Below, piece after piece: positions 7,761 to 31,573 of a stretch of 57,650 bases of DNA; the stretch's first letter is position 1; the number at the start of each line of letters is the position of its first letter. Both the position numbers and the translations under genes were made by a program. This stretch comes from a virus. The notes under the pieces were generated by a model. That model did no database searches. It was not told where the DNA came from and worked only from the letters and a program-made list of their open reading frames with translations. The stretch covers positions 1 to 57,650 of IMG/VR virus record IMGVR_UViG_3300023301_000010, one strand, 5' to 3'.

Positions 7761-8320
7761 TTTAGCGGCACGTTGGAAAAGCGGTCATAATAGGGGGCGA
7801 TGCCCTGAAACCGCGTCTGGGGGCTCATTTGTGACACTTCGGGGGCAACAAAAAGAGCATCTATACCGTTTACCATCCCACCTTCGGCAAAGCGGAAGTT
7901 ATATCCGGCTTTGACTCCGTAAGAAGGCTCCGTATAAGGAGACTGAGCGCCTTGCACACGTCCGTAGTTGCCACCAACGGACAAAATTCCCTGTCCCAAC
8001 GGCACTTCCGTCCCGGCAGAATATCCCCGGTACTTGCCCGCTTGCATAAATCCGGCATTTGCGGGCAATCCGGGGACGGCAAACTGCCCTTGGGTCGGTT
8101 CGTTTTGACTGAACTGCTGTTTTGTCTTAGAAATCAACTCTTCAGACCCCGGAATAGGGCCAAAAGGGATGCTTTGGTCGCCTTGGATCGGTTGATCCGT
8201 GTAACGGGGGTAATCAACTTGCGAAGGGTCAAATATCTGCCGTTCTAGCGGCAACGGACCGGAAACGTTCAGGTCCGGGGGCAACGATCCAAGATATCTA
8301 TACCAGTCTTCGCCTTGCAT
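7757..8320 (-). CDS. Late protein of unknown function with beta-rich C-terminus
   Basis: A 187-residue protein. The first ~100 residues are Pro/Gln/Gly-rich and look disordered. The second half (GILSVGGNYGRVQGAQ, then YGVKAGYNFRFAEGG) alternates glycine and aromatics as in outer-membrane-like or fibre beta hairpins. The ATG overlaps the portal stop (TGATG), and the end overlaps the acyltransferase start (ATGA). It is a possible substrate of the adjacent acyltransferase, because it has a lysine pair in a polar segment (ISKTKQQF). This is speculation from context. Confidence 0.6.
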   Translation of the reverse strand: MQGEDWYRYLGSLPPDLNVSGPLPLERQIFDPSQVDYPRYTDQPIQGDQSIPFGPIPGSEELISKTKQQFSQNEPTQGQFAVPGLPANAGFMQAGKYRGYSAGTEVPLGQGILSVGGNYGRVQGAQSPYTEPSYGVKAGYNFRFAEGGMVNGIDALFVAPEVSQMSPQTRFQGIAPYYDRFSNVPLK

Positions 8321-10740
8321 CACATTCCGCCCGTCCGTTGGAGCTGCGCCGCTACCCTCATCTCTGCGATTTGCTCAGTAGACATAAGACGCGCCTTTTC
8401 CATGGCGAGCTTCTCGGCATTACGCTGCTTATCTATCTGGATCTGTGCAGCGTCGCCCTGTGCCTTCCGCATATTGTCTTTTTCGCGGATATCCAGTTCG
8501 CGGGACTTCAAATCAACAAGCGCATCTTCGCCCTGACCCTTGGGAGTAAGCTGCTCGAGGGTTTCAGTGACAAGTTTCGCTTCGATGCGAGAGATTTCAA
8601 GCTGAAGCCGCTGCGGTTCGACCGCTTGTCCGGTTTCCTGCTGAACTTTTTCAGCTTCGCCTTGGACCTGAGTGGTCGCCAACATGGCGATGTGTTCCAT
8701 CACATGCCCGAGCAGGATACCGTACACCGGAGGTGAAGTCTGCACGATGGGCGTGAGGATGAACTTCATATGTGCCTGAATGTGCGACATATGGTCTTGT
8801 TCGGGAAACACTCGCAACGCCTTCTCACCCTGAGGGGAAGAAAGCGACCGAGCATTCTCCACCGCCGCGCTCTCCGCCTTGGGTTCTGTGGGAGGTACGA
8901 GCACCGCGTCGATATTCTGCACGCCTAGGGCCGAGTACATCCGGCGATAGGCTTCGTACATGTTGTGCATGTCGGGGGAGAGCTGAGCGAGTTTGAGCTG
9001 CTCCTGCGCCAAAGTGATGCGCTGCGTCATGCTGTAGATATTGGGATCGCTCACCGGAACGATGTCGATCCTGCGGTCGAAGTCCTGTGCCTTCACACTC
9101 TGCTCGGCACCCGGAACTTCGTAGGGGTACTCTTCGGGCAAATCTTCAGCAAACACACTGGCAAGAAGCTTCAATTCCTGCTTCTGCGCGTAGTGCAGCC
9201 GCTTGTGGACGGCAGACATCACACGACTACCACGCTCCAACAGAGCAATGGTAGTGCCGACGGGCATTTCCTGATTGCCTTCGCCCATGCCGAGGTCGGT
9301 CGTACCGATGAACTTTTGAGCAGCGCTGATGCAGAAACCCATCAAGCTGAACAAGGTGGCCGAAGGCTCCTTGTACGGCAACGGCATCAGGTTTTCGCGC
9401 AACGCGCCACCCGGAGCGTCAACGTCGCGCCACTCGCCCGGTTGCAGCGGGGACTCTTGGTCCTGAATCCGCATACCCTTGGCTTTGAATCCCGCCGGGA
9501 GGTTGCTGAGCGTTCCGGCGTCGATCAACTGACGCAACAGCGACGTAGAACTGCGCGACAAGTTGCCGATAAGGTGGACAAGCCCGAACCCGTAGAAACC
9601 GAGGCCCGGGAGAAACTTGTAGTGGACGAAATACTGGCGCTTGCGCTTGCGAGTGTCTTCTTCGCGGTAGTTGCGGCGGATGGAAAGGACTTCACCGCTC
9701 GTGGCTTCGATGGTCACGATGTACGGAAGCTTGACCCCCGTCGGTTCGCCTTCAGCATCTACATCCTCTGAACCTTCGATGTCCAGATTGCAGTGGCACT
9801 CGTAAAGGACAAACTCATCGGGGGTGGACGAAGGTTCAAGGCCCGTGATCTTGTCTTGTTTGTCCTTGATGATGTCGTCGCTGTTTTCCGTCGGATCCTG
9901 AAGTTCAACGTCGCGGTAAAAACCACTGACCTGTTGCTTCTTCAGAGTGTTTGAAGTGACTCGGACCACATGCGTAACACGCTCCGCCGTGGACAGATCC
10001 TTGGCGCTGTACGGAACGATAAGATCCTTCGCCTGAACGAAAGGACTCGTTGCACGGCCAAGATCACCGTCGTAATAAACTTTCTTAAATGCCGAACCGC
10101 CGTAGCCGACGTAGTACAGCATCTGGTCGAAATCAGGATCATATTCCTCCATGATTTCGGTGATTTGAAAGTTCATGTAGTTTTTGACGCGTTCGGCTTG
10201 AGCTTCCTTTTCAGGAGTCACCTTGCCGATCACTTGCGTACGAGTCGGACCCCCTGCTGGGAGAAGTTCCTTGTACGCCTGAGCCTGAAACTGCGTGACC
10301 GCTTCGTTCAAAATAGGGTGCGTAACACCCGTAGCCCCGTTGAACGGTTCAGTGCGTTCTTCGTACGTCAGCCCAAGGAGCGTGAGGCCTTCTTCGTAGG
10401 TCTTTTCCCACTCGGCCCTGCTCGACTTGTCTTCTTCAATGAGAGACGTGAGGTCCTTGCTGATGGAAGCAAGGTCGGTGTCATCCATCTCATCGGCAAG
10501 GTTCGCACCGAACCCCAAAGAACTGATTCGCTTTTCCGGTTCGTCAAAAACGATGGTGGCACCACCCTCGTCGTCTTCAACGATCTCAAAGCCTTCGTCG
10601 TCTTCAGGAAGCGTCTCTTCCAAATCTACTGTGGTCTCATCCGTCTGGTTCGGTACCGACGGGTATTCGTCCATCTGACCTTCAATGCTGAAAGCAGAAG
10701 GCAAAGGACGTTCAACGTTGTTGAAAGGACCAACGGCCAT
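8320..10740 (-). CDS. Portal protein
   Basis: An 806-residue protein, large like podovirus portals (P22 gp1 is 725). It forms the dodecameric DNA channel at one head vertex and docks the terminase. It opens with a very acidic N-terminus (residues ~30-70), then a conserved core including GATGVTHPILNEAV, YYVGYGGSAFKKVYYD, LPGLGFYGFGLVHLIGNLS and a long helical C-terminal region (LEQLTPKGQGEDALVDLKSRELDIREKD) resembling the portal barrel helix. It follows terL with a one-base overlap, the canonical order. I am confident from the core pattern and synteny. Confidence 0.85.
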   Translation of the reverse strand: MAVGPFNNVERPLPSAFSIEGQMDEYPSVPNQTDETTVDLEETLPEDDEGFEIVEDDEGGATIVFDEPEKRISSLGFGANLADEMDDTDLASISKDLTSLIEEDKSSRAEWEKTYEEGLTLLGLTYEERTEPFNGATGVTHPILNEAVTQFQAQAYKELLPAGGPTRTQVIGKVTPEKEAQAERVKNYMNFQITEIMEEYDPDFDQMLYYVGYGGSAFKKVYYDGDLGRATSPFVQAKDLIVPYSAKDLSTAERVTHVVRVTSNTLKKQQVSGFYRDVELQDPTENSDDIIKDKQDKITGLEPSSTPDEFVLYECHCNLDIEGSEDVDAEGEPTGVKLPYIVTIEATSGEVLSIRRNYREEDTRKRKRQYFVHYKFLPGLGFYGFGLVHLIGNLSRSSTSLLRQLIDAGTLSNLPAGFKAKGMRIQDQESPLQPGEWRDVDAPGGALRENLMPLPYKEPSATLFSLMGFCISAAQKFIGTTDLGMGEGNQEMPVGTTIALLERGSRVMSAVHKRLHYAQKQELKLLASVFAEDLPEEYPYEVPGAEQSVKAQDFDRRIDIVPVSDPNIYSMTQRITLAQEQLKLAQLSPDMHNMYEAYRRMYSALGVQNIDAVLVPPTEPKAESAAVENARSLSSPQGEKALRVFPEQDHMSHIQAHMKFILTPIVQTSPPVYGILLGHVMEHIAMLATTQVQGEAEKVQQETGQAVEPQRLQLEISRIEAKLVTETLEQLTPKGQGEDALVDLKSRELDIREKDNMRKAQGDAAQIQIDKQRNAEKLAMEKARLMSTEQIAEMRVAAQLQRTGGM

Positions 10741-12206
10741 CAGTAGTACACCCTTCGCACAGGAGCCCCGTTGCGCTCATAAACATAATCATCAGGATGA
10801 GTAACGAACCCTCCCTGACGGAACCGCATGAGGGCTTGCGTCATCGCGTCAACCATATCATCATGCTCGCCGAACGGAAAGGCGGCGGTTTCTTCTATTA
10901 CCTCATCGGCCCAACTCGCCTCCGGAGCCCAAACCAATCCGCTTTCGAACAACGGAGCCACGGCATTCGCGCGGCTGATCTTGTCATTCCCTCGACTGGG
11001 ACTGAAGTTCACAACCGGAATACCCGTGGCCCGTAGCTCTTGAGTCAAGGGCATTCCCGCCGCCTTGCTTTCGATCAAAACCGTATCGGGTTCCCAATAC
11101 TTGTATTCTTCGTAGGCTATCCGCTTCAGTTCAGGGAATTCCCATCGGCCTTTCTTCGCGTCCAACAGAATCAAGTTGGGCGGTGAATCTTCCGTCGGGT
11201 AAAACACGCCCCACGTTTGAATCGCGCTGAAGTCGGCCGTCTGCGTTTTCATAAAAGCGGTGTCGTAACTCTGCATCACATATTGCAGCTTCGGCACTTT
11301 TTCATGTGTCCACCTTTTCCACCACAACCGCTTGATGATGCTGGACGTATCAGAAGTCGGCTGCTGCATATACTGCGCTTGCCACTTGCTGAGCGCGATA
11401 GAAGCTCGCACCCCTTCAAGTTCGTCCAAACTCCAGTATTCCGACCACAACGGCGAACCATCCGGCATGATGGCCGGGAACTCGACCACTTCCCACTTGT
11501 CGGCCTTGGGGTCGTTCGCACTCTGCTTCAACAATCTTGCAGTAAGGTCCATCTCACCCCACCGCGTCATAACCACCACAATGGCCCCGCCCGGCTGCAA
11601 ACGCTGTCGCGGTCCACCCTGATACCACTCCCACGCGGCATCGAGCGCCGCAGGACTCATCGCATCCTGCTCACTGTGCGGGTCGTCTACAATAAACAAA
11701 TCCGCTCCGCGACCCGCGATGCTGCCCCCCACACCCGCCGCGTAATACTCGCCACCGCCATCTGTTTCCCAACGATACGCCGCCTTGGAATCGCTCTTCA
11801 ACTTGACGCCAAAAACGCTCTGGTATTCTTCAGTCTCCATAAGGGTCTTCACCTTACGGCCGAATCGTACCGACAAATCTGCCGTATGCGTCGCTTGCAT
11901 GATCTTCAAATCAGGCCGACGGCCCACCATCCATGCAGGGAACAAGAAGCTCGCAAATTCGCTCTTCGTATGGCGGGGCGGCATATTGATAATCAATCGC
12001 TTCAAATCACCACGCGCCACCGCTTCCAATTTCTCAGCTACAATCTTATGATGTCGTCCGGCAATGAATCCCGGCCACACATACCGCACGAACTCTAAAA
12101 ACCCGCCACGCGCATTCTCGCTCGCAAACAAATGCGCCGCCCGCTGACTGAGCTGAGCAAACCGCTTGACGGCATCTTCCGGCAACGCTTCGAGGCTATT
12201 GGTCAT
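10740..12206 (-). CDS. terL: Terminase large subunit
   Basis: A 488-residue packaging motor. The N-terminal ATPase shows a Walker A-type NMPPRHTKS (residues ~74-82), Walker B LFIVDD (170-175) and a coupling motif near VVVMTRWGEMDLTARLL. The C-terminal nuclease starts near SYDTAFMKTQTADFSA and ends with HDDMVDAMTQALMRF, a usual third acidic motif of TerL RNase H-like nucleases. It is preceded by a 640-bp repeat-rich gap and followed directly by portal. The ribosome site upstream of the ATG is weak. Confidence 0.93.
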   Translation of the reverse strand: MTNSLEALPEDAVKRFAQLSQRAAHLFASENARGGFLEFVRYVWPGFIAGRHHKIVAEKLEAVARGDLKRLIINMPPRHTKSEFASFLFPAWMVGRRPDLKIMQATHTADLSVRFGRKVKTLMETEEYQSVFGVKLKSDSKAAYRWETDGGGEYYAAGVGGSIAGRGADLFIVDDPHSEQDAMSPAALDAAWEWYQGGPRQRLQPGGAIVVVMTRWGEMDLTARLLKQSANDPKADKWEVVEFPAIMPDGSPLWSEYWSLDELEGVRASIALSKWQAQYMQQPTSDTSSIIKRLWWKRWTHEKVPKLQYVMQSYDTAFMKTQTADFSAIQTWGVFYPTEDSPPNLILLDAKKGRWEFPELKRIAYEEYKYWEPDTVLIESKAAGMPLTQELRATGIPVVNFSPSRGNDKISRANAVAPLFESGLVWAPEASWADEVIEETAAFPFGEHDDMVDAMTQALMRFRQGGFVTHPDDYVYERNGAPVRRVYY

Positions 12207-19597: not shown

Positions 19598-20063
19598 CAC
19601 TCTACCCCTTCGTAACGAGCGGGCTGAGCCCCCGCTTCCTGATTTTGATATTTGCCCGTGTACGGGCTTTCGGTCGGGGTATCCATTTGCAGCAGAATAA
19701 TCTGAGCAATGGGAGTACCCTCCCTAATAGAAAGTACCATCGAACCGTTATCGAACCGTTGTTGACAAGCTCAAGTGTGAGCCACCCGTGCCACCCCGGC
19801 TCTATCACGGTGTTGAACAGGCTCAAACCACGGCGAGCCCATGTAGATTTGTCATGCACCATGCCGACAAGGTCCTCCGGCATTTCGAACCGCTCGACGG
19901 TCGAAGCCAGAGTGAAGTCCCCCGGTTTGAGCTCGACATCTTCGGCGATGCGAACGTCGTATCCGGCATGGCTCAACCCGTAGGTGAGTCCATTGGCGAA
20001 GGACTTTTCACAAAAGGGAGTGAAGATTCCGCGCTTACGGATAGACTGTGCTGAAAGGATCAT
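19597..20063 (-). pseudogene. dcd: dCTP deaminase/dUTPase-family gene, frameshifted by an 11-bp tandem duplication
   Basis: The first ~100 residues match the Dcd/dUTPase trimer fold: HAGYDVRIAEDVELKPGDF, MPEDLVGMVHDKSTWARRGL and the active-site-like VIEPGWHGWLTLELVNNG. After that the frame breaks. ATCGAACCGTT is present twice in tandem (19739-19749, 19750-19760). Deleting one copy restores SMVLSIREGTPIAQIILLQ and a tail with KYQNQ, then a TGA exactly overlapping the gcrA ATG. As it stands the frame runs to 19602 with a 46-residue unrelated tail. The intact enzyme (about 150 residues) would make dUMP or clear dUTP, feeding the ThyA-family enzyme. Confidence 0.8.
19739..19760. repeat. 11-bp tandem duplication inside the dcd-like gene
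   Basis: Two exact adjacent copies of ATCGAACCGTT. Eleven is not a multiple of three, so the duplication shifts the frame of a conserved enzyme at its C-terminal third. It may be a real slip mutation, a strain mixture or an assembly error. Confidence 0.95.
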
Positions 20064-23440: not shown

Positions 23441-23982
23441 TCCGCAAGCTCCTGTGCGATGTAGTCGCTGCGCCCGGAAATATCAGGGCTCATCAGAACG
23501 CGGACCCGTGTGCCGATGGGGATAACCTTCAGCCGCTCAAGAATACGGTCAGTCGTGTGCGGCGGGACAAACACATTGCCGCCGTTGTAGTCGGCGAAAA
23601 TTATCCGCATCCCCGATTTGGCATAGGCGTGACGGGCGATGGTGATCTCACCGGAAATAATGTTGTTCGGGCGGTTGTAGGTTTCCCTGCCCTTTTTCAC
23701 ACCCGCGAGCAGCTCTGTCAGCCCCGCTCCGGGCGTTGCTATGGGCAGTGCAACAGGCGCAACCACCGGAGCAACCACGGCCTTATCAGAAGTTTCCATG
23801 AAGTCGATGTATTCCTGCATGATCTCGACCGCTTCTTGCGAAGGACCGTTGCGGAAGTCGCACCACAGATAGATCGAGTTGCGGGTGAACCCAGTCTCGT
23901 CGGAAAGCTTAGCCACACTTCCGGCCCTCTGCAGAGCCTTGGCAATAATCATCAACCGGGATTCAGTCATAACGTTCTTCAT
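23437..23982 (-). CDS. DNA-binding-like protein with N-terminal HTH
   Basis: A 181-residue protein. Residues ~15-50 (IIAKALQRAGSVAKLSDETG, FTRNSIYLWCDFRNGPSQEA) form a helix-turn-helix of the Cro/YdaS kind. After an Ala/Pro/Val linker comes a second domain (NRPNNIISGEITIARHAYAK onwards) with a beta-rich end. The start at 23982 has GGAG six bases upstream; a later ATG at 23970 overlaps the upstream stop instead. It may be an early repressor or activator. The second domain is unrecognised. Confidence 0.6.
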   Translation of the reverse strand: MKNVMTESRLMIIAKALQRAGSVAKLSDETGFTRNSIYLWCDFRNGPSQEAVEIMQEYIDFMETSDKAVVAPVVAPVALPIATPGAGLTELLAGVKKGRETYNRPNNIISGEITIARHAYAKSGMRIIFADYNGGNVFVPPHTTDRILERLKVIPIGTRVRVLMSPDISGRSDYIAQELAE

Positions 23983-24454
23983 ACTTGTCTCCACCACACA
24001 TGAACTCAGGCGGGTTACGTCTCCGCCACGTAGCTATCCTTGCTTTTTCTCCTAGATAGTAGGCACGGTAGGCAAGCGTCGTTTCGCGACACTTGTATTC
24101 GTCAGGCATGGCCTGAGCGAACGGGGTAAACCCTCGAGCAGTTAAGCTTATGGGAGCGCACCTGACCAATGCGAGAACCTCAGCGCACGCATGTATTTTA
24201 TCATAGCGGTGCTGATATTCTTTGCAGAGGGCGACGCCCAAACGCCAGAGCCATCGGTAGTTTTCCACAGACCGACTAGCCCACTGCGTACAGGGGTGAT
24301 TTTGATGACAGGGCTTGTAGGGGGCTTCTTCACCGTACAGGTGGTAGACCGTGCAAAGCATCTGCGCGGTTTCCAACGGCATCTTCACTACGTGCTTGTC
24401 GCAGTGGAACTGAGCTGCTGTAACGGGGTCGTAGTCTAGAACGAAGATGTTCAT
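23963..24454 (-). CDS. Conserved phage protein of the MNIFVLDxDP...DKHVVKM family
   Basis: A 163-residue protein with MNIFVLDYDPVTAAQFHCDK, HVVKMPLETAQML, then KPCHQNHPCTQW, a helical middle and AMPDEYKCRETTLAYRAYYL. The start motif is shared by many phage and giant-virus proteins. Conserved D, H, K, H and C residues suggest an enzyme acting on nucleotides or DNA, but I know no proven function. The ATG at 24454 overlaps the upstream stop (ATGA). Confidence 0.75.
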   Translation of the reverse strand: MNIFVLDYDPVTAAQFHCDKHVVKMPLETAQMLCTVYHLYGEEAPYKPCHQNHPCTQWASRSVENYRWLWRLGVALCKEYQHRYDKIHACAEVLALVRCAPISLTARGFTPFAQAMPDEYKCRETTLAYRAYYLGEKARIATWRRRNPPEFMCGGDKYEERYD

Positions 24455-24690
24455 TCCACCCACACCGAACGCGTCGGGCCGAGCGGTCCCACTATAACCC
24501 CGTAGATCATGATGCGTGCATTAGGCACGGCACTCATAATGCGGGCTTTTTCTTCCTGCGCCTCGGCAAGCGAAGGAAAATAATTGGTGGTGTAAGTACC
24601 GCGACCCCGAAACCAACAGCATGAAAATGCGTTGGCCGAAGACAGTATCTCAGCGTCGAAGTCGGCGCGGCTTTTGTCCGCGTATTCCAT
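24451..24690 (-). CDS. Conserved small phage protein
   Basis: A 79-residue protein. SCCWFRGRGTYTTNYFPSLA and a following EAQEEKARIMS helix form a pattern found in phages of Alphaproteobacteria, function unknown. The ATG at 24690 is preceded by CAAGAAAGGAACGC, a variant of the shared TAGAAAGGGG leader. It probably starts a transcript of its own. Confidence 0.65.
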   Translation of the reverse strand: MEYADKSRADFDAEILSSANAFSCCWFRGRGTYTTNYFPSLAEAQEEKARIMSAVPNARIMIYGVIVGPLGPTRSVWVE

Positions 24691-24732: not shown

Positions 24733-25272
24733 TTAATCCGTGGACAAACGGTTTTTGTTCCTGTTGTCCGCTGCCCATGCGACCACTGTGAAGATCTTTT
24801 TGTACTCTTCTTCTTGGCGGTAACGATCCCACAGATATTTGACACCGTTCTCAAACACGACCTCAAAATAGTGGTTGCCGAGTTTGATCTGTTCACTGGC
24901 GAAGATGACCAGTTCCAACATGTCACATATTTTCAGCCGCTTCTTTTCTTCAGGGTTCAAGATGATCGCCAAGCCGAGCTTCTTTTCCGCTTCAGCTTCG
25001 ACACGAGCTACCGCTTCGGCAAACTCGGGGTAAGCCCACTTGGTCGTGGCCGGAATATCCCCTATGAGGATTTCAGCAACGTCATGGTAAAGCGTAGCTA
25101 AAAGAAGACCTTTAGTGCTATGCGGCCAAAGCTCATTGAGCAAAGTCGCAACACCCCACGAGTGTGCTCCCACGGTTTGACTATCCCCTACTGTCGGTAC
25201 TGTATGAAAACGTTTGATGTACGCTGCACGACGAACATTTCCGATCCTTTCGATGAGCGGAAGACTTTCCAT
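24733..25272 (-). CDS. HD-domain 5'-deoxynucleotidase (YfbR/HDDC2-like)
   Basis: A 179-residue metal-dependent phosphohydrolase. The signature is complete: RFHTV (Arg21/His23), GAHSWGVA (His37), YHDVAE (His63-Asp64, Glu67) and GDIPATTKWA. YfbR-type enzymes dephosphorylate dNMPs. In phages with modified DNA, such nucleotidases often remove the canonical nucleotide so the modified one is used. It lies directly after polymerase, ThyA-family enzyme and modification-type genes, fitting that job (inference). Confidence 0.82.
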   Translation of the reverse strand: MESLPLIERIGNVRRAAYIKRFHTVPTVGDSQTVGAHSWGVATLLNELWPHSTKGLLLATLYHDVAEILIGDIPATTKWAYPEFAEAVARVEAEAEKKLGLAIILNPEEKKRLKICDMLELVIFASEQIKLGNHYFEVVFENGVKYLWDRYRQEEEYKKIFTVVAWAADNRNKNRLSTD

Positions 25273-25273
25273 G

Positions 25274-27193
25274 TCACACTTCCATTTCGCTATGGTTTTC
25301 GCTCAAACCGCGAGTCCAAGGTTTGTCTGCAAAGGTGAGCTTCGCCTCACCCCAGTTGGGGCCGAACTCTGCGTCAACAATTGAAGGAACGCCGAGATTG
25401 ACACAGTTTTCCATGACCTGTTGAATACGTGCCGCCGTTTCGGGGTCGCCCACGCTGATGTCAAGTTCATCGTGAACCTGAATCATAGGCAAGATGCCCT
25501 GTTCGTATAGGGCTACCATTGCCGCCTTGGTTTGATCGGCTGCTGAACCCTGTATAAGCCTGTTCAGAGCCTTGTAGGTAAACGCGCGCCGTATACCGCT
25601 ACCGTGTTCGTTGAAGGCGTCCTTGTGGCTCAAGGGCTTGTGAATACCGTACCGGGAAGGTTCCCACATATCGAAGCGACAACGCCGCCCCAACAACGTC
25701 CGTATCACGCCCTTCTGCGCCGCCCTGTTCATGGTGTACTCGCTGAGCTGACGCACAAACGGCACGCGATCGTGATAGACCTTGAACAGTTCTTCGGCTT
25801 CGTCCAGTGCCAGACCCAAGCTTGCCGCAAGCTTGTTTTTCCCCATGCCGTAGAACAAACCCAGATTGATGTCCTTGGCCTGTTTACGGGGTACCCCTAC
25901 GATGGATGCCGCAAGCGCATGAAAATCCGTACGAGGATCCTTCTCGTACTGCTCGACAAATGCTCGAGCCCCTTCAAAATCCAAGAGACTTGCGTAATGC
26001 ACCACAAGGCGAGGCTCTTGACTGCTGTAGTCAAACGCGCCCCACTGTTCTCCAACTTCTGGTAGAAATAGGCTCCGGATAATCGGTCCGATCTCAGCAT
26101 TCCTTGCAGGAATTTGCTGAAGGTTAGGATCGCTATAACTGAATCGGCCCGTAACAGTGCCACCTTCGTCTGAGCGAAGTGAATGAATTTCCGCATGGAT
26201 ACGACCCTTGTGTGCGTGTTTCAGAATCGTGTCGATAAACGTGGTCCGCGCTTTGTTGAGCTCTCTCGCGTACACGATCTTCTTGGGCAGTGGATGATTA
26301 TGCGTTTTGAGGAACAGCTTGCCGAAGCTCGGTGCTCCCGTTTTCTCGGTCACCCCGTAGCTGATGCCCGCAACATCAAACGCCTTGGCTACACTCTGCG
26401 CCGCCCAGATGTCGACCGACACCCCATATTCCTGTTTCACTTCATGTAGGATAGCAGCTTCGCGCTTTTCCAAATCGGTTTTGATAAGGGCCGCACGTTC
26501 CAAGTCGACACGCACCCCTTTGGATCGCATATCGATAATGACTTTCTGCACCTTCAGCTCAAGATCGACAATGCTGCTGATGTCTTCTTTGATCACCAAT
26601 CCTTTGAAGTGGTTCCAAAGTTTCAGCGTCAGTGCCGCATCCTGCTCTGCATAGGCACCCACCATCGTAGCGGGGAGTTTGTACATTTCGGCTTTGGCAT
26701 CAACGCCGAAGTCGCGTGCAGACTCTTGCAACAGGCGTTCGTCTTTGCGTTCGTTCAGGTAATCGCGCCCCAACGAGTTGAGCGCGTAACTGAAACGGTT
26801 CTCGTCGAGCAAAGGTGCAACCACCATCGTGTCAACCACGCGGCCCTTTACTTCGATGCCTTCAGCTCTTAGCCAACCGACATCGTATCCCGCGTTATGA
26901 AAGATGAAAGTTTTTTCAGGGTCACTGCACAAATCACGAACCCAAGCCATAGTCCGCTTAGGATCGAGATTAGGGCCAAGACGATGACGAATGGGAAAGT
27001 ACCAAGCATCGCCTTCAACAGCGACGGCAACTCCGATAATTTCTCCGTCGCCTCGCGGCCAACCGCTGCCCCGGACTTTGAGGTTTGGGTCGTAGGTTTC
27101 AAGGTCAATCGATATTTCCTTTGCCCACTTGAGGTTCGGGTAGCCGTCTGGCATCACCCATTCCGTCGGCTGCGTGAAGAGGGGCAACTCCAT
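25274..27193 (-). CDS. polA: DNA polymerase I-type replicative polymerase (family A) with 3'-5' exonuclease
   Basis: A 639-residue replicase. The exonuclease has DLE (Asp30, Glu32), FHNAGYDVGWL and YAEQDAALTL motifs. The polymerase has motif A AFDYSSQEPRL (Asp388), motif B RKQAKDINLGLFYG (Lys440, Tyr448) and motif C QVHDELD (His574-Glu576). The residue matching E. coli Phe762 is Leu444, a natural variant linked in viral ecology studies to slower, more faithful synthesis. No 5'-3' exonuclease domain. It ends two bases before the HD gene. Confidence 0.93.
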   Translation of the reverse strand: MELPLFTQPTEWVMPDGYPNLKWAKEISIDLETYDPNLKVRGSGWPRGDGEIIGVAVAVEGDAWYFPIRHRLGPNLDPKRTMAWVRDLCSDPEKTFIFHNAGYDVGWLRAEGIEVKGRVVDTMVVAPLLDENRFSYALNSLGRDYLNERKDERLLQESARDFGVDAKAEMYKLPATMVGAYAEQDAALTLKLWNHFKGLVIKEDISSIVDLELKVQKVIIDMRSKGVRVDLERAALIKTDLEKREAAILHEVKQEYGVSVDIWAAQSVAKAFDVAGISYGVTEKTGAPSFGKLFLKTHNHPLPKKIVYARELNKARTTFIDTILKHAHKGRIHAEIHSLRSDEGGTVTGRFSYSDPNLQQIPARNAEIGPIIRSLFLPEVGEQWGAFDYSSQEPRLVVHYASLLDFEGARAFVEQYEKDPRTDFHALAASIVGVPRKQAKDINLGLFYGMGKNKLAASLGLALDEAEELFKVYHDRVPFVRQLSEYTMNRAAQKGVIRTLLGRRCRFDMWEPSRYGIHKPLSHKDAFNEHGSGIRRAFTYKALNRLIQGSAADQTKAAMVALYEQGILPMIQVHDELDISVGDPETAARIQQVMENCVNLGVPSIVDAEFGPNWGEAKLTFADKPWTRGLSENHSEMEV

Positions 27194-27326
27194 CAGTAGT
27201 GACCTTCATTGATTGTTTGCACTGGCACCGAGGCCATTTGTTTTTCAACTGTCTAAAAGTAACGGTGCGGGATTCTTTCCCGCACTCGCATACTGCCAGA
27301 ACACGATCATCCAGAGCCAAACTCAT
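27105..27326 (-). CDS. Small zinc-ribbon-like protein overlapping polymerase start
   Basis: As read, 73 residues. MSLALDDRVLAVCECGKE then KWPRCQCKQ gives a C-x-C...C-x-C zinc-ribbon-like pair. Beyond this, the frame runs 89 bases into the polymerase gene, unusual for this genome. A one-base change near the AAA at about 27218 would give a stop before or overlapping the polymerase ATG (for example ...TINEGHY-stop at TGATG). So the C-terminus may be wrong. Function unknown. Confidence 0.5.
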   Translation of the reverse strand: MSLALDDRVLAVCECGKESRTVTFRQLKNKWPRCQCKQSMKVTTDGVAPLHAADGMGDARRLPEPQVGKGNID

Positions 27327-27612
27327 TTTCACACCCGAGCATCTCTGCTTCAACGAGCAGAAGGTAGCGACGCAAGTCGCGGATGTCATCGAGAATACCA
27401 GTGTTCGACGGATCAAGCTTTATCGCCTTGAACACATCGTACCCTTGCTTTCCGGTTTGGTTTTCAATGCGGTCCCACTTACGGGCCAACATCATAAACG
27501 CCCCGACACCACCACGGCGCTTCCAACTGTCGCCGTAGCTTTCGCGGGCCTTGAGCAACCCCTTGCAATCCTGCTCGACAAGCTCGGGGAGATGGTCATA
27601 CAGAGTAATCAT
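27307..27612 (-). CDS. Conserved phage protein, nucleotide-modification-associated (DUF1599-like)
   Basis: A 101-residue protein. ARESYGDSWKRRGGVGAFMML then ARKWDRIENQ and ILDDIRDLRRYLLLVEAEM is a highly recurrent phage pattern. YGDSW...R...M..K..RI resembles the 'nucleotide modification associated domain 1' (DUF1599) and MazG-type folds; this assignment is tentative. Its ATG overlaps the ThyA stop (ATGA), and its end overlaps the zinc-ribbon gene. Adjacent to a ThyA-family enzyme, a nucleotide-pool function is plausible. Confidence 0.7.
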   Translation of the reverse strand: MITLYDHLPELVEQDCKGLLKARESYGDSWKRRGGVGAFMMLARKWDRIENQTGKQGYDVFKAIKLDPSNTGILDDIRDLRRYLLLVEAEMLGCENEFGSG

Positions 27613-28580
27613 TTCACCCTCCGTTCGAGCCACTCGACACACGCCTTGCGCCAGTCGTCGGCTTGGATTTCTTTGGCCACACTGATTGCCTCGATAAGGT
27701 CGCCACCCTTCCACACTCGCCACGCGCGGCGCATGGGGTCGGCTACCTCGTGAAAGAACGGATTATGGTACGGCGTCATCTGTTCACGCTTTTCGTCCGC
27801 CAAGAAACGAGAAAGGTCCATGTCAAACCGTTTGGCGTCCTTAACGAGCGGATAGTGCTTCAGGTTGTTGGTGGCGTAGGGGTCGTAGTCGGCCACCAAT
27901 CCATCGAGCTTTTTCAGCACTTCCGTATACGCATGAAAGCTGTCGGAGACCTGCGTGTAGCGACCGACTCCCACCCCGACCTGCGCCGCCATATATTCCA
28001 ACAGGAAACTGAAGTGGACGGCGTTGGCCCCATACGCTCCCCAGATCATATCGTTGCTGCGACAGCAAACCGTCATATGCAGGAGATCATCCCGCACCTT
28101 GAAGTAGATGTGCGTATTGCAGGGGATGTCATTGCTTTCATTGTTATCCATCAGATCCAGACTAGGATCCCAGATACCGACCACGGTACGGCGGTCGTTC
28201 TTGAAGTTCTTGAGGCGATACGCTGCCGTGACGAGTTGATCAGTTTCGAACCAGTTACGCCACCGATACCCGTAGGCTCCCCAAAAGCTTTGTCCGTCGT
28301 TGGAATACTCGGCGATACGCTTGTTGTACGGAGTCAACCACGCGACGTCCTTCCTACCACCCAACATCCACAAGCTTTCGAGCATGTGAAAGAAAGGGTT
28401 AGCGTCACGTTGCGGATAGAAAAGCACCCGCTCACACGGGTTCATGTAAGTAGTGGCCACGGGCATCGGCATTTCTAGGGTTTCCCCTGCCCGCGTCTGC
28501 ACTATATTTCCAGTATTCCGGATACGCAGTACCCCTAGATAGAGCGCTTCAGACACATTTTGGACGTTGATCGCGTGCAT
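27609..28580 (-). CDS. ThyA-family thymidylate synthase or dUMP/dCMP hydroxymethylase
   Basis: A 323-residue enzyme that methylates or hydroxymethylates a pyrimidine dNMP using methylene-tetrahydrofolate. HMLESLWMLGG is the N-terminal Glu helix, IPCNTHIYF holds the catalytic Cys154, CRSNDMIWGAYGANAVHF gives the phosphate-binding Arg/Ser and Asn186 at the position that reads uracil (Asp there would favour dCMP), and SDSFHAY closes the site. Sequence is well diverged from cellular ThyA, as in hydroxymethylases. Neighbours of the glycosyltransferase and aGPT-Pplase types favour dUMP hydroxymethylase, but plain thymidylate synthase cannot be excluded. The start at 28580 follows a purine-rich leader. 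Confidence 0.85.
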   Translation of the reverse strand: MHAINVQNVSEALYLGVLRIRNTGNIVQTRAGETLEMPMPVATTYMNPCERVLFYPQRDANPFFHMLESLWMLGGRKDVAWLTPYNKRIAEYSNDGQSFWGAYGYRWRNWFETDQLVTAAYRLKNFKNDRRTVVGIWDPSLDLMDNNESNDIPCNTHIYFKVRDDLLHMTVCCRSNDMIWGAYGANAVHFSFLLEYMAAQVGVGVGRYTQVSDSFHAYTEVLKKLDGLVADYDPYATNNLKHYPLVKDAKRFDMDLSRFLADEKREQMTPYHNPFFHEVADPMRRAWRVWKGGDLIEAISVAKEIQADDWRKACVEWLERRVK

Positions 28581-28581
28581 G

Positions 28582-29331
28582 TCAGCCCCCGAAAGCTTTC
28601 TTCCAATAAACGGTGACTTCGACGCGCTCGCCGAACTCTCCACCCGTCTTGTTCTTTTTGTTTCGCAGCTTGACGCAATCAGGATGACGATTGTGCAATG
28701 CGATAGCAGCGGCTTCGTGCTTTTCAACGTTGCGGTGAATACTGCATCCGCCCTTGGCCTGAGTGCCCGACTGATTCTGCGCGTAGTCTGTGAAAATGTA
28801 GCTCGGCTTCCCCTTTTTCAGGAGTTGCAGTGCAACATCAAAGTCTTCCATGTACTCAGCGCGGTGGTCGCACTCGAGGTATGCGCTCCGTTGGTAGCCG
28901 AGCACCCTCATGTACCGTTGGTTTTTCACATGGGGGTAGGGCAGTCGGTTTTGGCCTTCGCGAGCACTGATGCCGACATGCGCGTAAAGCTGCAACGCCA
29001 TTTCCATCTCGCGGAACAGGAACGAGTCCTCGTTCTTTTCCAAGGCCCGTAGGTGGTAGTCCACGTCTGACTTGCGCTTGTAGAAGGTAAGGTCGTCATC
29101 AAGCATGACGAAACTTTCCCCTGCGAGCTCTTTGGCAATGGTCAGGCGCTTTTCTCCAATGGTGTGGTACGGAATAGCGACCGCCTTGCACCCGTGCTGT
29201 TGAATAAGAGGGAGATACTTGTCCTTCTCATCCTCGTGCAGAACGAGTGTGACGTCTTGCTTCACACCCGGCAGTGACTCTAGCGTAGGGCAGCGATCCC
29301 ATCGCCCCCTGCTTACGACAAAGATATTCAT
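28582..29331 (-). CDS. TET-associated-type glycosyltransferase (GT-A fold)
   Basis: A 249-residue protein. MNIFVVSRGRWDRCPTLESL is a GT-A-like start, then a beta strand reading FVMLDDDLTFYKR with the metal-binding DDD, and MEDFDVALQLLKKGKPSYIF as the acceptor-site acidic motif. The layout matches the 'TET-associated glycosyltransferase' group, which modifies oxidised or hydroxymethylated bases in phage DNA. The gene is directly upstream of the ThyA-family gene, so I infer it glycosylates 5-hydroxymethyl-pyrimidine. A protein or wall acceptor is the alternative. Confidence 0.72.
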   Translation of the reverse strand: MNIFVVSRGRWDRCPTLESLPGVKQDVTLVLHEDEKDKYLPLIQQHGCKAVAIPYHTIGEKRLTIAKELAGESFVMLDDDLTFYKRKSDVDYHLRALEKNEDSFLFREMEMALQLYAHVGISAREGQNRLPYPHVKNQRYMRVLGYQRSAYLECDHRAEYMEDFDVALQLLKKGKPSYIFTDYAQNQSGTQAKGGCSIHRNVEKHEAAAIALHNRHPDCVKLRNKKNKTGGEFGERVEVTVYWKKAFGG

Positions 29332-29349
29332 ACCCCATACTCGCTTTCT

Positions 29350-30213
29350 TCAGAGCGTTGGTTTGAACAGGCTTCGCGGTCTGCCTTGATCTAGCAGTAC
29401 TCGCATGTACTTATCCCACTCGCAGAGTGAATGTTCAATAGAGCGCATGTCGAACTCGGCTTGTGGCACATGGTTTCCCAAGTACTCTGCGCTACGCTGC
29501 AAAAGCTCGTACATTTCAGCATTCCAATCGCGAGCCTTGATACTGTTCAGGTCGCGACCGTGAATGCGATTTAGTCCGCGCTTGGCACCGGGTCCGGCAT
29601 TGGCCCATTTCATGCGGTCTTTGGCGAGCGCCAGAACCGGAGTGTGGTTAAGGTCGGTGATCACCTCATACGCCATGAAACCACCACCACCCCACCCTCT
29701 GAACTGTCCAAGGACACCGTGCATCGCTTGGAGCGAGTTGGTCTCCCTAGCCATATCGGCAAGGTACTTTCGGTTTTCCCACAGAGGGTTCAGAAAAAGG
29801 TCGACCACCACCTGTTCCTTCGGGTCTTTGAGCCCTTGGTTGGTGATGATGTAAGCCCCCGTGAAGACCTTTTTACCACTGTTGAGCCGATTGCGGGCGA
29901 GCGCCTTGGCATAGTTGGGATTCCACTTCTTGGTCCACCCATGCTGTTCGGCAAACTCCATCGTACCGAACATCCGAAACAGGCAGCAGTTGAAGATGAT
30001 CTCTTCAGCTGGGCTGTCATGGTTCGGGTTGGTCCAGTGCTTCCGCATCCAAAGGGTAGTGCGGTCATATTCACGAAACACGTTCGTGAACTTATATGTT
30101 TGAAGGATTTTGTCCTCGGTCCAAGGCGCGGCGTCACCCGCTCTACGCTTGGCGTAGATCAGATGACGCTCGTTGATCCAATAGAAAAACTTTTCGAGGT
30201 TTTCCTGAATCAT
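29350..30213 (-). CDS. Alpha-glutamyl/putrescinyl-thymine pyrophosphorylase-like protein (HMUDK helical-domain superfamily)
   Basis: A 287-residue protein. Signature: FFYWINERHLIYAKRRAG, PWTEDKILQTYKFTNVFRE and YDRTTLW in the first 80 residues, then GQFRGWGGGGFMAYEVITDL and GPGAKRGLNRIHGRDL. This is the helical domain shared by 5-hmdU DNA kinases and aGPT-Pplases, enzymes of thymine hypermodification. No P-loop kinase domain is fused, so the transferase/pyrophosphorylase type is more likely. Start ATG 30213 lies just after the upstream stop. The family roles are known from modified phages; this phage's product is unknown. Confidence 0.75.
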   Translation of the reverse strand: MIQENLEKFFYWINERHLIYAKRRAGDAAPWTEDKILQTYKFTNVFREYDRTTLWMRKHWTNPNHDSPAEEIIFNCCLFRMFGTMEFAEQHGWTKKWNPNYAKALARNRLNSGKKVFTGAYIITNQGLKDPKEQVVVDLFLNPLWENRKYLADMARETNSLQAMHGVLGQFRGWGGGGFMAYEVITDLNHTPVLALAKDRMKWANAGPGAKRGLNRIHGRDLNSIKARDWNAEMYELLQRSAEYLGNHVPQAEFDMRSIEHSLCEWDKYMRVLLDQGRPRSLFKPTL

Positions 30214-30221
30214 GGCCGTGC

Positions 30222-30845
30222 TCAATACTTGGCGATCAGTCCGATGTAGCCGCTTTTCGTGGCCCACCGAACGAAGTCGCGCGCAACCTTTTCTTGGTTG
30301 TCCGCATCCTGCAACCGACGCACGGCTTCTTCTACCGTTGCGGAAGCCTGAATCAGCATCATGTTCTTGTAACGGAGAGAGGCCTCACGACCTTCGAAGT
30401 TTTTAAGAACCTTGATGGCTTCATCCCCGTGAATACGGAGGTTGTTGGGGTTAGGCAAAGGAGACTCCACTTTGGCTTTGGGTTGCGCCTTGGGCCGTGT
30501 AGCAGCCCTAACAGGCGAAGGGTCCACAGGGGCTTCCTGCGGGGTCGGTACGGTAGCGGTTGCCCGCTTCAGCACCATGCTATGCAAGGCTTCCGCCGCG
30601 ACGCTCGGTGAAGGAAATCCGTTGGTTCCGTAAGGGAACGAACGCTTGCCCCCGTTGAGAGCAAGCCAGACGGCATCGAGCTCGTCTTTGCGGAAGAAAT
30701 CTACAAGCTGTTTTATTTCAGAGTACACCACCGCCGTCTCACTTACGACCTTAGCGGTATGTGCATCTTTCAAACTCTTGAACTTGTAGACGTTGTAGGG
30801 CTTGCCGTCACTGGCGGGTTGCCCCTCGGCGATAACGTAGTACAT
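30222..30845 (-). CDS. Unknown protein with Pro/Ala-rich linker, in the modification cluster
   Basis: A 207-residue protein. N-terminal ~100 residues are a mixed domain (MYYVIAEGQPASDGKPYNVY...), then a Pro/Lys/Ala-rich linker and a helical C-terminal domain (LKNFEGREASLRYKNMMLIQ, DADNQEKVARDFVRWATKSG) resembling a winged-helix or HTH. TAGAAAGGGACAGC precedes the ATG at 30845. It lies between the methyltransferase and aGPT-Pplase-like genes, so it could belong to the pathway. No match recognised. Confidence 0.6.
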   Translation of the reverse strand: MYYVIAEGQPASDGKPYNVYKFKSLKDAHTAKVVSETAVVYSEIKQLVDFFRKDELDAVWLALNGGKRSFPYGTNGFPSPSVAAEALHSMVLKRATATVPTPQEAPVDPSPVRAATRPKAQPKAKVESPLPNPNNLRIHGDEAIKVLKNFEGREASLRYKNMMLIQASATVEEAVRRLQDADNQEKVARDFVRWATKSGYIGLIAKY

Positions 30846-30907
30846 GCTGTCCCTTTCTACGACAGAGTGTGCAACTACCGTAAACGGTGCCGTTGCACTG
30901 ACAAGAG
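30846..30907 (-). promoter_or_regulatory. Leader with possible promoter before 30222-30845
   Basis: On the minus strand TTGTCAGTGCAACGGCACCG then TTTACGGTAGTTGCACACTC, and CGTAGAAAGGGACAGC before the ATG. TTGTCA and CAACGGCA recur in the leader at 32987-33055, implying a common promoter. The -10 is uncertain. Confidence 0.45.
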
Positions 30908-31573
30908 CTACCTTCTCCACCCTCCAAGCGTGTGCCACAGTTTCTCATTGCGCTTAGGAGGAACTACCGTTTCCCAATCGGCAAAGCCTTCGATGACTTT
31001 TTCTGCCAGTTGGAACCAAGGAATGTACTGACTAGCGGGAGTATTGTAGTGCAGCTCCATACTAAATTCACGTACAGAGTCCGGGAGTGTGAAGGTGCCG
31101 CCGTTCAACAGCAAGTCATACTCGGCCCCTTCGCAATCCATCTTGATCGCTTCGGGCAGTACACTCCCCAACACCTTGCTGAAGTTGGAAGCGCCGACAG
31201 TAACCTTTTCGCGGCCACGAATGGAGTACATGCTGTAGTTGCCGTGATTGGTGCCGTCGGTGAGGAAGAAGTCGATAGACTTTGCATCACTGGAAACCAG
31301 AGCCGAGTTATGCAGCTTGGCCCGAGCATCACTGCCTACGTTCTTGGTCAGCAGTTCGAAGTTTTCTTTGTCGGGCTCAAACGCCCAAACTTCCTTCGCG
31401 CCATTGGCCAGAGCCCAATGTGTGAACGCGCCGATGTTGGCACCGACATCGAGAACAACGCGGTCCTTAACGGCCATCCAACCGTAACTACGGTTGATTT
31501 CACGAATGATTGAATGGTCATAGGTGTCTGGACGAATGAACATCCCGTTGGGATGTTGAATGAGATTGGTCAT
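30908..31573 (-). CDS. FkbM-family SAM-dependent methyltransferase
   Basis: A 221-residue enzyme. SAM motif I is VLDVGANIGAFTHWALANGA, motif II is VWAFEPDKENFELL, and IKMDCEGAEYDLL is the FkbM-typical acidic signature. FkbM enzymes usually O-methylate sugars or hydroxyls. With a glycosyltransferase and hydroxymethylase-type enzyme nearby, it may methylate a sugar on modified DNA; methylation of a host glycan is the alternative. The ATG at 31573 follows AAGG. A strong hairpin precedes it (31596-31626). Confidence 0.85.
   Translation of the reverse strand: MTNLIQHPNGMFIRPDTYDHSIIREINRSYGWMAVKDRVVLDVGANIGAFTHWALANGAKEVWAFEPDKENFELLTKNVGSDARAKLHNSALVSSDAKSIDFFLTDGTNHGNYSMYSIRGREKVTVGASNFSKVLGSVLPEAIKMDCEGAEYDLLLNGGTFTLPDSVREFSMELHYNTPASQYIPWFQLAEKVIEGFADWETVVPPKRNEKLWHTLGGWRR

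Follow-up and report, generated by a model that had tools for sequence, protein, structure and literature searches.

Which base would a phage make from a gene cluster that carries the synthase and the HMUDK_hel protein of a thymine hypermodification operon, with a glycosyltransferase and no kinase beside them? The cluster lies at positions 24,733 to 31,573 of the window, the whole 57,650-base virus record IMGVR_UViG_3300023301_000010, a contig without end repeats in which the absence of a gene means its absence from the contig. A sequence-only reading of this DNA had proposed "thymine/cytosine hypermodification" through 5-hydroxymethyldeoxyuridine (5-hmdU), with a sugar transferase added. The thymine route and its added sugar transferase were supported by the follow-up, and the relatives show a systematic pattern. 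The best reading, with a probability of about 0.68, is a glycosylation version of the M6-type thymine hypermodification, in which 5-hmdU in DNA is decorated with a sugar. The operon order, HMUDK_hel, one variable gene, thymidylate synthase (TS) and HD/polA, matches that of phages M6 and PaMx11, minus the kinase and ADDT. Transcribed from the minus strand, the genes run FkbM, a protein at 30222-30938, HMUDK_hel, the glycosyltransferase TAGT, ThyA, a small conserved protein, polA and the HD nucleotidase. ThyA, TAGT and HMUDK_hel are tightly packed, with gaps of 1 base (ThyA-TAGT) and 18 bases (TAGT-HMUDK_hel). HD, ThyA, TAGT, HMUDK_hel and FkbM all exceed curated cut-offs in a Pfam scan.

The ThyA-family synthase (27609..28580, minus strand; PF00303 5.8e-19; phrog_5131 2.9e-108) is a predicted dUMP 5-hydroxymethylase, or 5-hmdUMP synthase. 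It is 43.5% identical to the synthase of phage M6 over 99% of its length (E 3e-76), its nearest relatives form the M6/YuA-type group, and another full-length relative is the "pyrimidine hmase" of MW202897. Because the full-length relatives are M6/YuA-type synthases, ATG 28580 was taken as the true start. Aligned with E. coli TS, the window synthase keeps the equivalents of Arg21, Glu58, Cys146, Arg166, Asp169, Asn177, His207 and Tyr209. Its Asn186 is at the Asn177 position, where M6, PaMx11 and MW202897 also have Asn and the CMP hydroxymethylase MilA has Asp; the alignment covers part of T4 gp42. The mark of a dCMP hydroxymethylase, Asp for Asn at this base-reading position, is not present in the window synthase. 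At the position of TS Trp80 no phage synthase covering the site has Trp, and the window has Ile. These residues support 5-hmdUMP, not hmdCMP, as the predicted product. The claim of a diverged ThyA-family synthase with a uracil-reading Asn186 was thus borne out by the profile and the alignment; the thymine half of the proposed hypermodification stood, on the M6-type synthase and Asn186, and the cytosine half, given the Asp of MilA, did not.

Directly upstream of the synthase is the TET-associated-type glycosyltransferase, TAGT (28582..29331, minus strand; PF20691 3.9e-22), predicted to have a GT-A fold and to glycosylate 5-hmdU in DNA. It scores 79.6 bits against a cut-off of 27.5, covers the profile from 1 to 205 of 205 positions, and also matches phrog_842, beta-glucosyl-HMC-alpha-glucosyltransferase, at 2.3e-48. 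The DDD motif noticed from the letters (residues 78-80; 29092..29100, minus strand), a predicted metal and nucleotide-sugar site, is invariant in 17 of 17 aligned sequences, and the profile match confirmed the family. Many solitary phage TAGTs of unknown role have been noted (PMC13216743, 2026).

The stand-alone HMUDK_hel protein (29350..30213, minus strand; PF18723 8.1e-56) is the predicted DNA-glycosylase-like, base-reading partner. Its open reading frame (ORF) runs from GTG 30267 (29350-30267), with ATG 30213 as the likely start, and the profile score is 189.9 bits against a cut-off of 25, so what had been called an HMUDK-helical-like protein belongs to that family. The predicted structure is confident (predicted local distance difference test, pLDDT, 93.7). 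Of the PDB matches, only those to archaeal 8-oxoguanine DNA glycosylases make sense; the best is a DNA-bound 8-oxoguanine glycosylase (probability 0.82, E 0.73), with Pa-AGOG lower, and this is suggestive, not firm, for a DNA-glycosylase-like fold in the model. A profile search for a solved HMUDK_hel structure found none. Core residues are identical in kinase-linked and glycosyltransferase-linked members. We infer that HMUDK_hel recognises or flips 5-hmdU for the adjacent enzyme, with catalysis of its own as a live rival. Position 38 of the aligned domain was considered as a discriminator of partners (C in 16 of 17 kinase-linked proteins, T in 34 of 37 glycosyltransferase-linked ones) and was set aside as suggestive: three TAGT-linked proteins and one kinase-linked protein do not follow the rule, which is also confounded by ancestry.

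In known systems of the M6 type the partner of HMUDK_hel is a kinase: M6 and Sonora carry the 5-hmdU DNA kinase (PF18748), HMUDK_hel and ADDT, and PaMx11 has the same layout. Profile searches of the 57,650-base record with PF18748 and PF18751 gave no match, and a Walker-A scan of the window found only a UvrD helicase and two overlapping minor-frame ORFs and no P-loop kinase, as the sequence-only reading had said. That reading understated the case, since throughout the family the kinase and the glycosyltransferase stand in for one another. In whole-record searches of 50 related and control records only M6 and Sonora were positive for PF18748; in 35 further records the positives were mostly M6-type, and PF18748 is absent from every record that has an above-cut-off TAGT. 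ADDT (PF18724) was not found above cut-off in 47 related virus records, with M6 and Sonora positive, and for the window itself the negative comes from the Pfam scan, in which none of the proteins scanned matched ADDT. The earlier idea of amination accordingly found no support. Eight weak ADDT matches in relatives fell below cut-off, and the one checked by coordinates (G025/L056) was HMUDK_hel itself.

The replacement was followed across viral contigs. A scan with the window's HMUDK_hel gave 109 relatives, of which 80 loci were kept; a TAGT scan added 7, and with M6-type and other HMUDK_hel loci the set came to 132 (numbered with L below), in which partners were scored by local profiles within 8 kb. 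A kinase is present in 26 loci, a predicted glycosyltransferase in 90 (40 TAGT, 29 GT4, 18 GTc3, 3 GTc4), neither in 16 and both in none. Kinase and glycosyltransferase thus exclude each other, and they have been exchanged repeatedly; the glycosyltransferases are themselves of unrelated families, GT-A for TAGT and GT-B for the GT4-like and GTc3 proteins. The slot between HMUDK_hel and ThyA, where the glycosyltransferase usually lies, contains one to three genes in nearly every case, from few families: TAGT, usually with a radical S-adenosylmethionine (SAM)/SPASM protein, a GT4-like family, the Pfam-unnamed GTc3, the small GTc4, and a diverged TAGT in L027. The GT4-like family, of GT-B type, matches Glycos_transf_1 weakly (1.7e-5); L077 and L081 have nothing in the slot and a GT4-like gene some 6 kb from it. 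GTc3 aligned end to end with one GT4 protein in hhalign at low probability, and the question was settled by structure instead: the GTc3 model (pLDDT 77.2; predicted template modelling score, pTM, 0.81) has a GT-B fold, its best PDB match is HepE with UDP-glucose (E 2.6e-10), and further matches are T4 alpha-GT bound to HMU DNA (1y6g) and T4 beta-GT (1bgt). Around polA in HTVC023P-type phages without ThyA and HMUDK_hel, no such glycosyltransferase was found.

A contig end truncates most of the 16 loci without a partner; L107 and L128-L130 genuinely lack one, as far as the DNA examined extends. L107 (2164-2901) is an M6-type HMUDK_hel contig in which a PIG-L-like deacetylase gene adjoins HMUDK_hel and no kinase was found in the record. 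L128-L130 have HMUDK_hel and ThyA with a Methyltransf_23 protein upstream, as shown for L128, and no kinase or glycosyltransferase within 8 kb. Guetzie has an adjacent P-loop kinase of the other family, PF18751.

The number of exchanges was estimated from trees. With near-copies removed, 64 HMUDK_hel proteins remained (17 with a kinase, Guetzie included, 39 with a glycosyltransferase, 8 with neither), and their tree requires 6 changes between kinase and glycosyltransferase and 19 changes of partner family. A more careful tree of 33 proteins, with the longest branches left out, gives 5 kinase/glycosyltransferase changes (4-5 in bootstraps), at least 2 of them forced by well-supported branches. 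A constraint that groups all kinase-linked HMUDK_hel proteins is rejected (approximately unbiased test, p-AU 0.016). The window's sister is L005, whose HMUDK_hel is 68% identical (support 98/92) and whose operon contains DUF932, FkbM, ThyA, the small protein, polA and HD, with GTc3 where the window has TAGT.

Put together, the proposed pathway would begin with ThyA converting dUMP to 5-hydroxymethyl-dUMP, while the HD nucleotidase would trim competing nucleotides. The phage polymerase would then place 5-hmdU in DNA, as suggested by the M6/SPO1 pathway. TAGT would attach a sugar to the hydroxymethyl group, in place of phosphorylation by the kinase and the amino acid added by ADDT, and FkbM would perhaps O-methylate that sugar. 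HMUDK_hel would be kept because it finds or presents the modified base to its catalytic partner, be it a kinase or a glycosyltransferase. Gene identities, conserved residues, the mutual exclusion of kinase and glycosyltransferase and their repeated exchange are observed; the substrate, 5-hmdU in DNA, and the nature of the sugar are, like the roles of HMUDK_hel and FkbM, inferred. The phage probably protects its DNA in this way, by coating thymine with a sugar. A wider proposal, which we hold tentatively and at somewhat less than even odds, is that HMUDK_hel is a general 5-hmdU-reading base flipper with interchangeable partners (kinases and at least three glycosyltransferase families), yielding a family of glycosylated thymines in which some sugars are O-methylated or altered by radical SAM enzymes.

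Several points weigh against the proposed glycosylation of 5-hmdU or against parts of it. TAGTs with a known role act on 5-hydroxymethylcytosine (hmC) or glucosyl-hmC (PMC13216743), and glycosylated 5-hmdU in phage has been stated to be unreported (PMC6449724, 2019). MW202897 (L002), a circular 40 kb phage genome, has TAGT, synthase and HD with no HMUDK_hel detected, and HMUDK_hel is therefore dispensable in some cases. Its structural resemblance to DNA glycosylases is weak, and with its many invariant polar residues the protein could be an enzyme and not a presenter. Relative to HMUDK_hel the kinase is upstream in every case and the glycosyltransferases are mainly downstream, and therefore what is exchanged is function, not position. 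GTc4, in 3 loci, is a putative glycosyltransferase by its position and general sequence pattern.

The glycosyltransferase and the FkbM protein might instead act elsewhere, on a host envelope polysaccharide or in superinfection exclusion, and leave as the final base 5-hmdU, or 5-hmdU changed by HMUDK_hel alone. We consider this unlikely, though the least unlikely of three alternatives. FkbM and GT4-type genes are common in polysaccharide clusters, which counts for it. L128-L130, with HMUDK_hel and ThyA and no glycosyltransferase within 8 kb, also fit, and pelagiphage glycosyltransferases are discussed as possible lipopolysaccharide modifiers (PMC9599517). An envelope role is harder to square with the place of the glycosyltransferase within the HMUDK_hel-ThyA operon of dozens of phages, with its exclusion of the kinase, and with its absence from the polA region of relatives that lack HMUDK_hel and ThyA; the window's own enzyme is a TAGT, a family known for DNA.

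Somewhat lower we would place the possibility that HMUDK_hel, as an ADDT relative, itself catalyses the addition of a small molecule to 5-hmdU, with TAGT glycosylating the added group to give an amino or other linker plus sugar. No hydroxyl-activating kinase and no pyridoxal phosphate (PLP) or decarboxylating enzyme was found in the cluster, and M6-type phages have separate kinase and ADDT genes beside HMUDK_hel, which argue against such a role; weak ADDT-profile matches in HMUDK_hel proteins of the window's lineage and 18 invariant HMUDK_hel positions, mostly charged or aromatic, argue for it. The least probable alternative is a modified cytosine, with the synthase making hmC or 5-hydroxycytosine and TAGT glycosylating it as in T6-type or TET-carrying phages. 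It has precedent in the characterised TAGTs that act on glucosyl-hmC (PMC13216743) and in some Mosigvirus ThyA homologues that make 5-hydroxy-dCMP (PMC13390438), but Asn186 agrees with M6, PaMx11, MW202897 and E. coli TS and not with the Asp of MilA, the nearest synthase relatives are the M6 group, and HMUDK_hel and the HD protein are components of the thymine pathway.

If 5-hmdU is glycosylated as proposed, other genes may tailor the sugar. The FkbM-type methyltransferase (30908..31573, minus strand, from ATG 31573; PF05050 5.7e-12), a candidate sugar O-methyltransferase, was correctly recognised by the sequence-only reading, as was the combination of sugar transferase and methyltransferase added to the cluster. 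Six related loci (L005, L047, L049, L127, L131 and, by Pfam, L072) have an FkbM-type gene adjoining HMUDK_hel or the glycosyltransferase; judged by what the family does, this recurrence fits sugar O-methylation. An NAD-dependent epimerase/dehydratase stands directly before TAGT in L091 (8916-9959) and L125 (10488-11531), as expected for a dedicated nucleotide sugar, which it suggests. A radical SAM/SPASM protein directly follows TAGT in 25 loci (L006, L007 and L009 among them) and accompanies GTc3 in L058; it may alter the sugar or the base.

The window is placed in the HTVC023P-type podovirus lineage, described from pelagiphages, by its terminase (10740-12206), portal (8320-10740), DNA-ejection-like protein, primase, UvrD helicase and polA, and by the relatives of the latter. 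The family A DNA polymerase that marks the lineage (25274..27193, minus strand; PF00476 1.4e-58) has its best phage matches in 023Pt_psg01 (55%), DSL-LC04 (53%), HTVC027P (52%) and HTVC023P (51%). Next to it the YfbR-like HD 5'-deoxynucleotidase (24733..25272, minus strand; PF12917 1.7e-14), announced as an HD nucleotidase and found to be one, is the probable trimmer of competing deoxynucleoside monophosphates; an HD protein also adjoins the synthase in M6 (gp59), PaMx11 (gp52) and MW202897. The small protein beside ThyA (27307..27612, minus strand) has the motif YGdSWkkRGGvgAFMMLARKwDR, belongs to a family found in 80 loci, and has no Pfam match; the suggestion that it was DUF1599-like fell, as PF07659 gave no match at E<=10. 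The protein upstream of HMUDK_hel (30222..30938, minus strand) matches no family over cut-off, Bac_transf being below it, and tblastn finds diverged relatives (26-36%) at the corresponding position in roughly half of the related loci. A dCTP deaminase-like gene (19602..20063, minus strand; DCD PF22769 1.3e-15; phrog_1663 1e-34), a possible supplier of dUMP, has an interrupted frame, with the family's C-terminal motif in another frame, either by assembly error or as a decayed gene. A pyrimidine-dimer DNA glycosylase-like protein (23963-24463, minus strand; PF03013 7.5e-6; phrog_624 1.7e-64) is also encoded downstream of HD/polA in most related loci.

Among known systems the closest is the M6/YuA/PaMx11 operon, which is alike in its synthase (43.5%, full length), HMUDK_hel (35%), HD nucleotidase, polA neighbourhood and gene order, and differs in that the window's cluster has TAGT and FkbM and no kinase, ADDT, radical SAM or PLP partner. 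HTVC023P-type pelagiphages of clades V, VIII and IX are of the window's own lineage (PMC9599517). In its accessible part that paper assigns the pelagiphage system to the M6 route and does not remark on the FkbM gene, on the lack of a kinase or on the replacement of one glycosyltransferase family by another; TS and HMUDK_hel with a glycosyltransferase nearby were described for this lineage in 2022. What is new here is the exclusion of kinase and glycosyltransferase and the exchange of glycosyltransferase families, neither of which was found in the searchable literature, which left out several key pathway papers. The beta-glucosyl-HMC-alpha-glucosyltransferases of T2/T6 and the TET-TAGT systems share the Pfam family and the DNA substrate, but they act on hmC or glucosyl-hmC, whereas the window synthase reads uracil and no TET is among the proteins scanned. 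Base J of kinetoplastids, glucosyl-5-hmdU, resembles the predicted product in being a glycosylated 5-hmdU, but it arises from oxidation of T in DNA (JBP) and uses another glucosyltransferase (JGT). Phage YerA41 has a large, probably oligosaccharide, substitution on thymidine (PMC9023294).

If the glycosylation reading is true, an abundant aquatic phage lineage carries glycosylated 5-hmdU, known in kinetoplastids as base J and not demonstrated in phages in the accessible literature; the job of HMUDK_hel would be explained too, since its partner has been swapped in nature several times. That glycosyltransferase families have replaced one another again and again in a single genomic slot has the look of an arms race fought over the sugar, with a parallel in the variety of glucose and arabinose on hmC in T4-like phages. 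Brevibacterium phage LuckyBarnes (NC_047851) has HMUDK_hel (PF18723 4.6e-68), TAGT, TAGT and TS in a row, with neither tested kinase family (PF18748, PF18751) found. The C-terminal part of its 517-amino-acid TS (L133:10456-12009, minus strand) weakly resembles the window's small ThyA-adjacent protein (E 0.026). Unlike the window, LuckyBarnes is an actinobacterial siphovirus outside the lineage, with two TAGTs, a longer TS and distant sequences; it is a cultured phage, which makes the reading directly testable.

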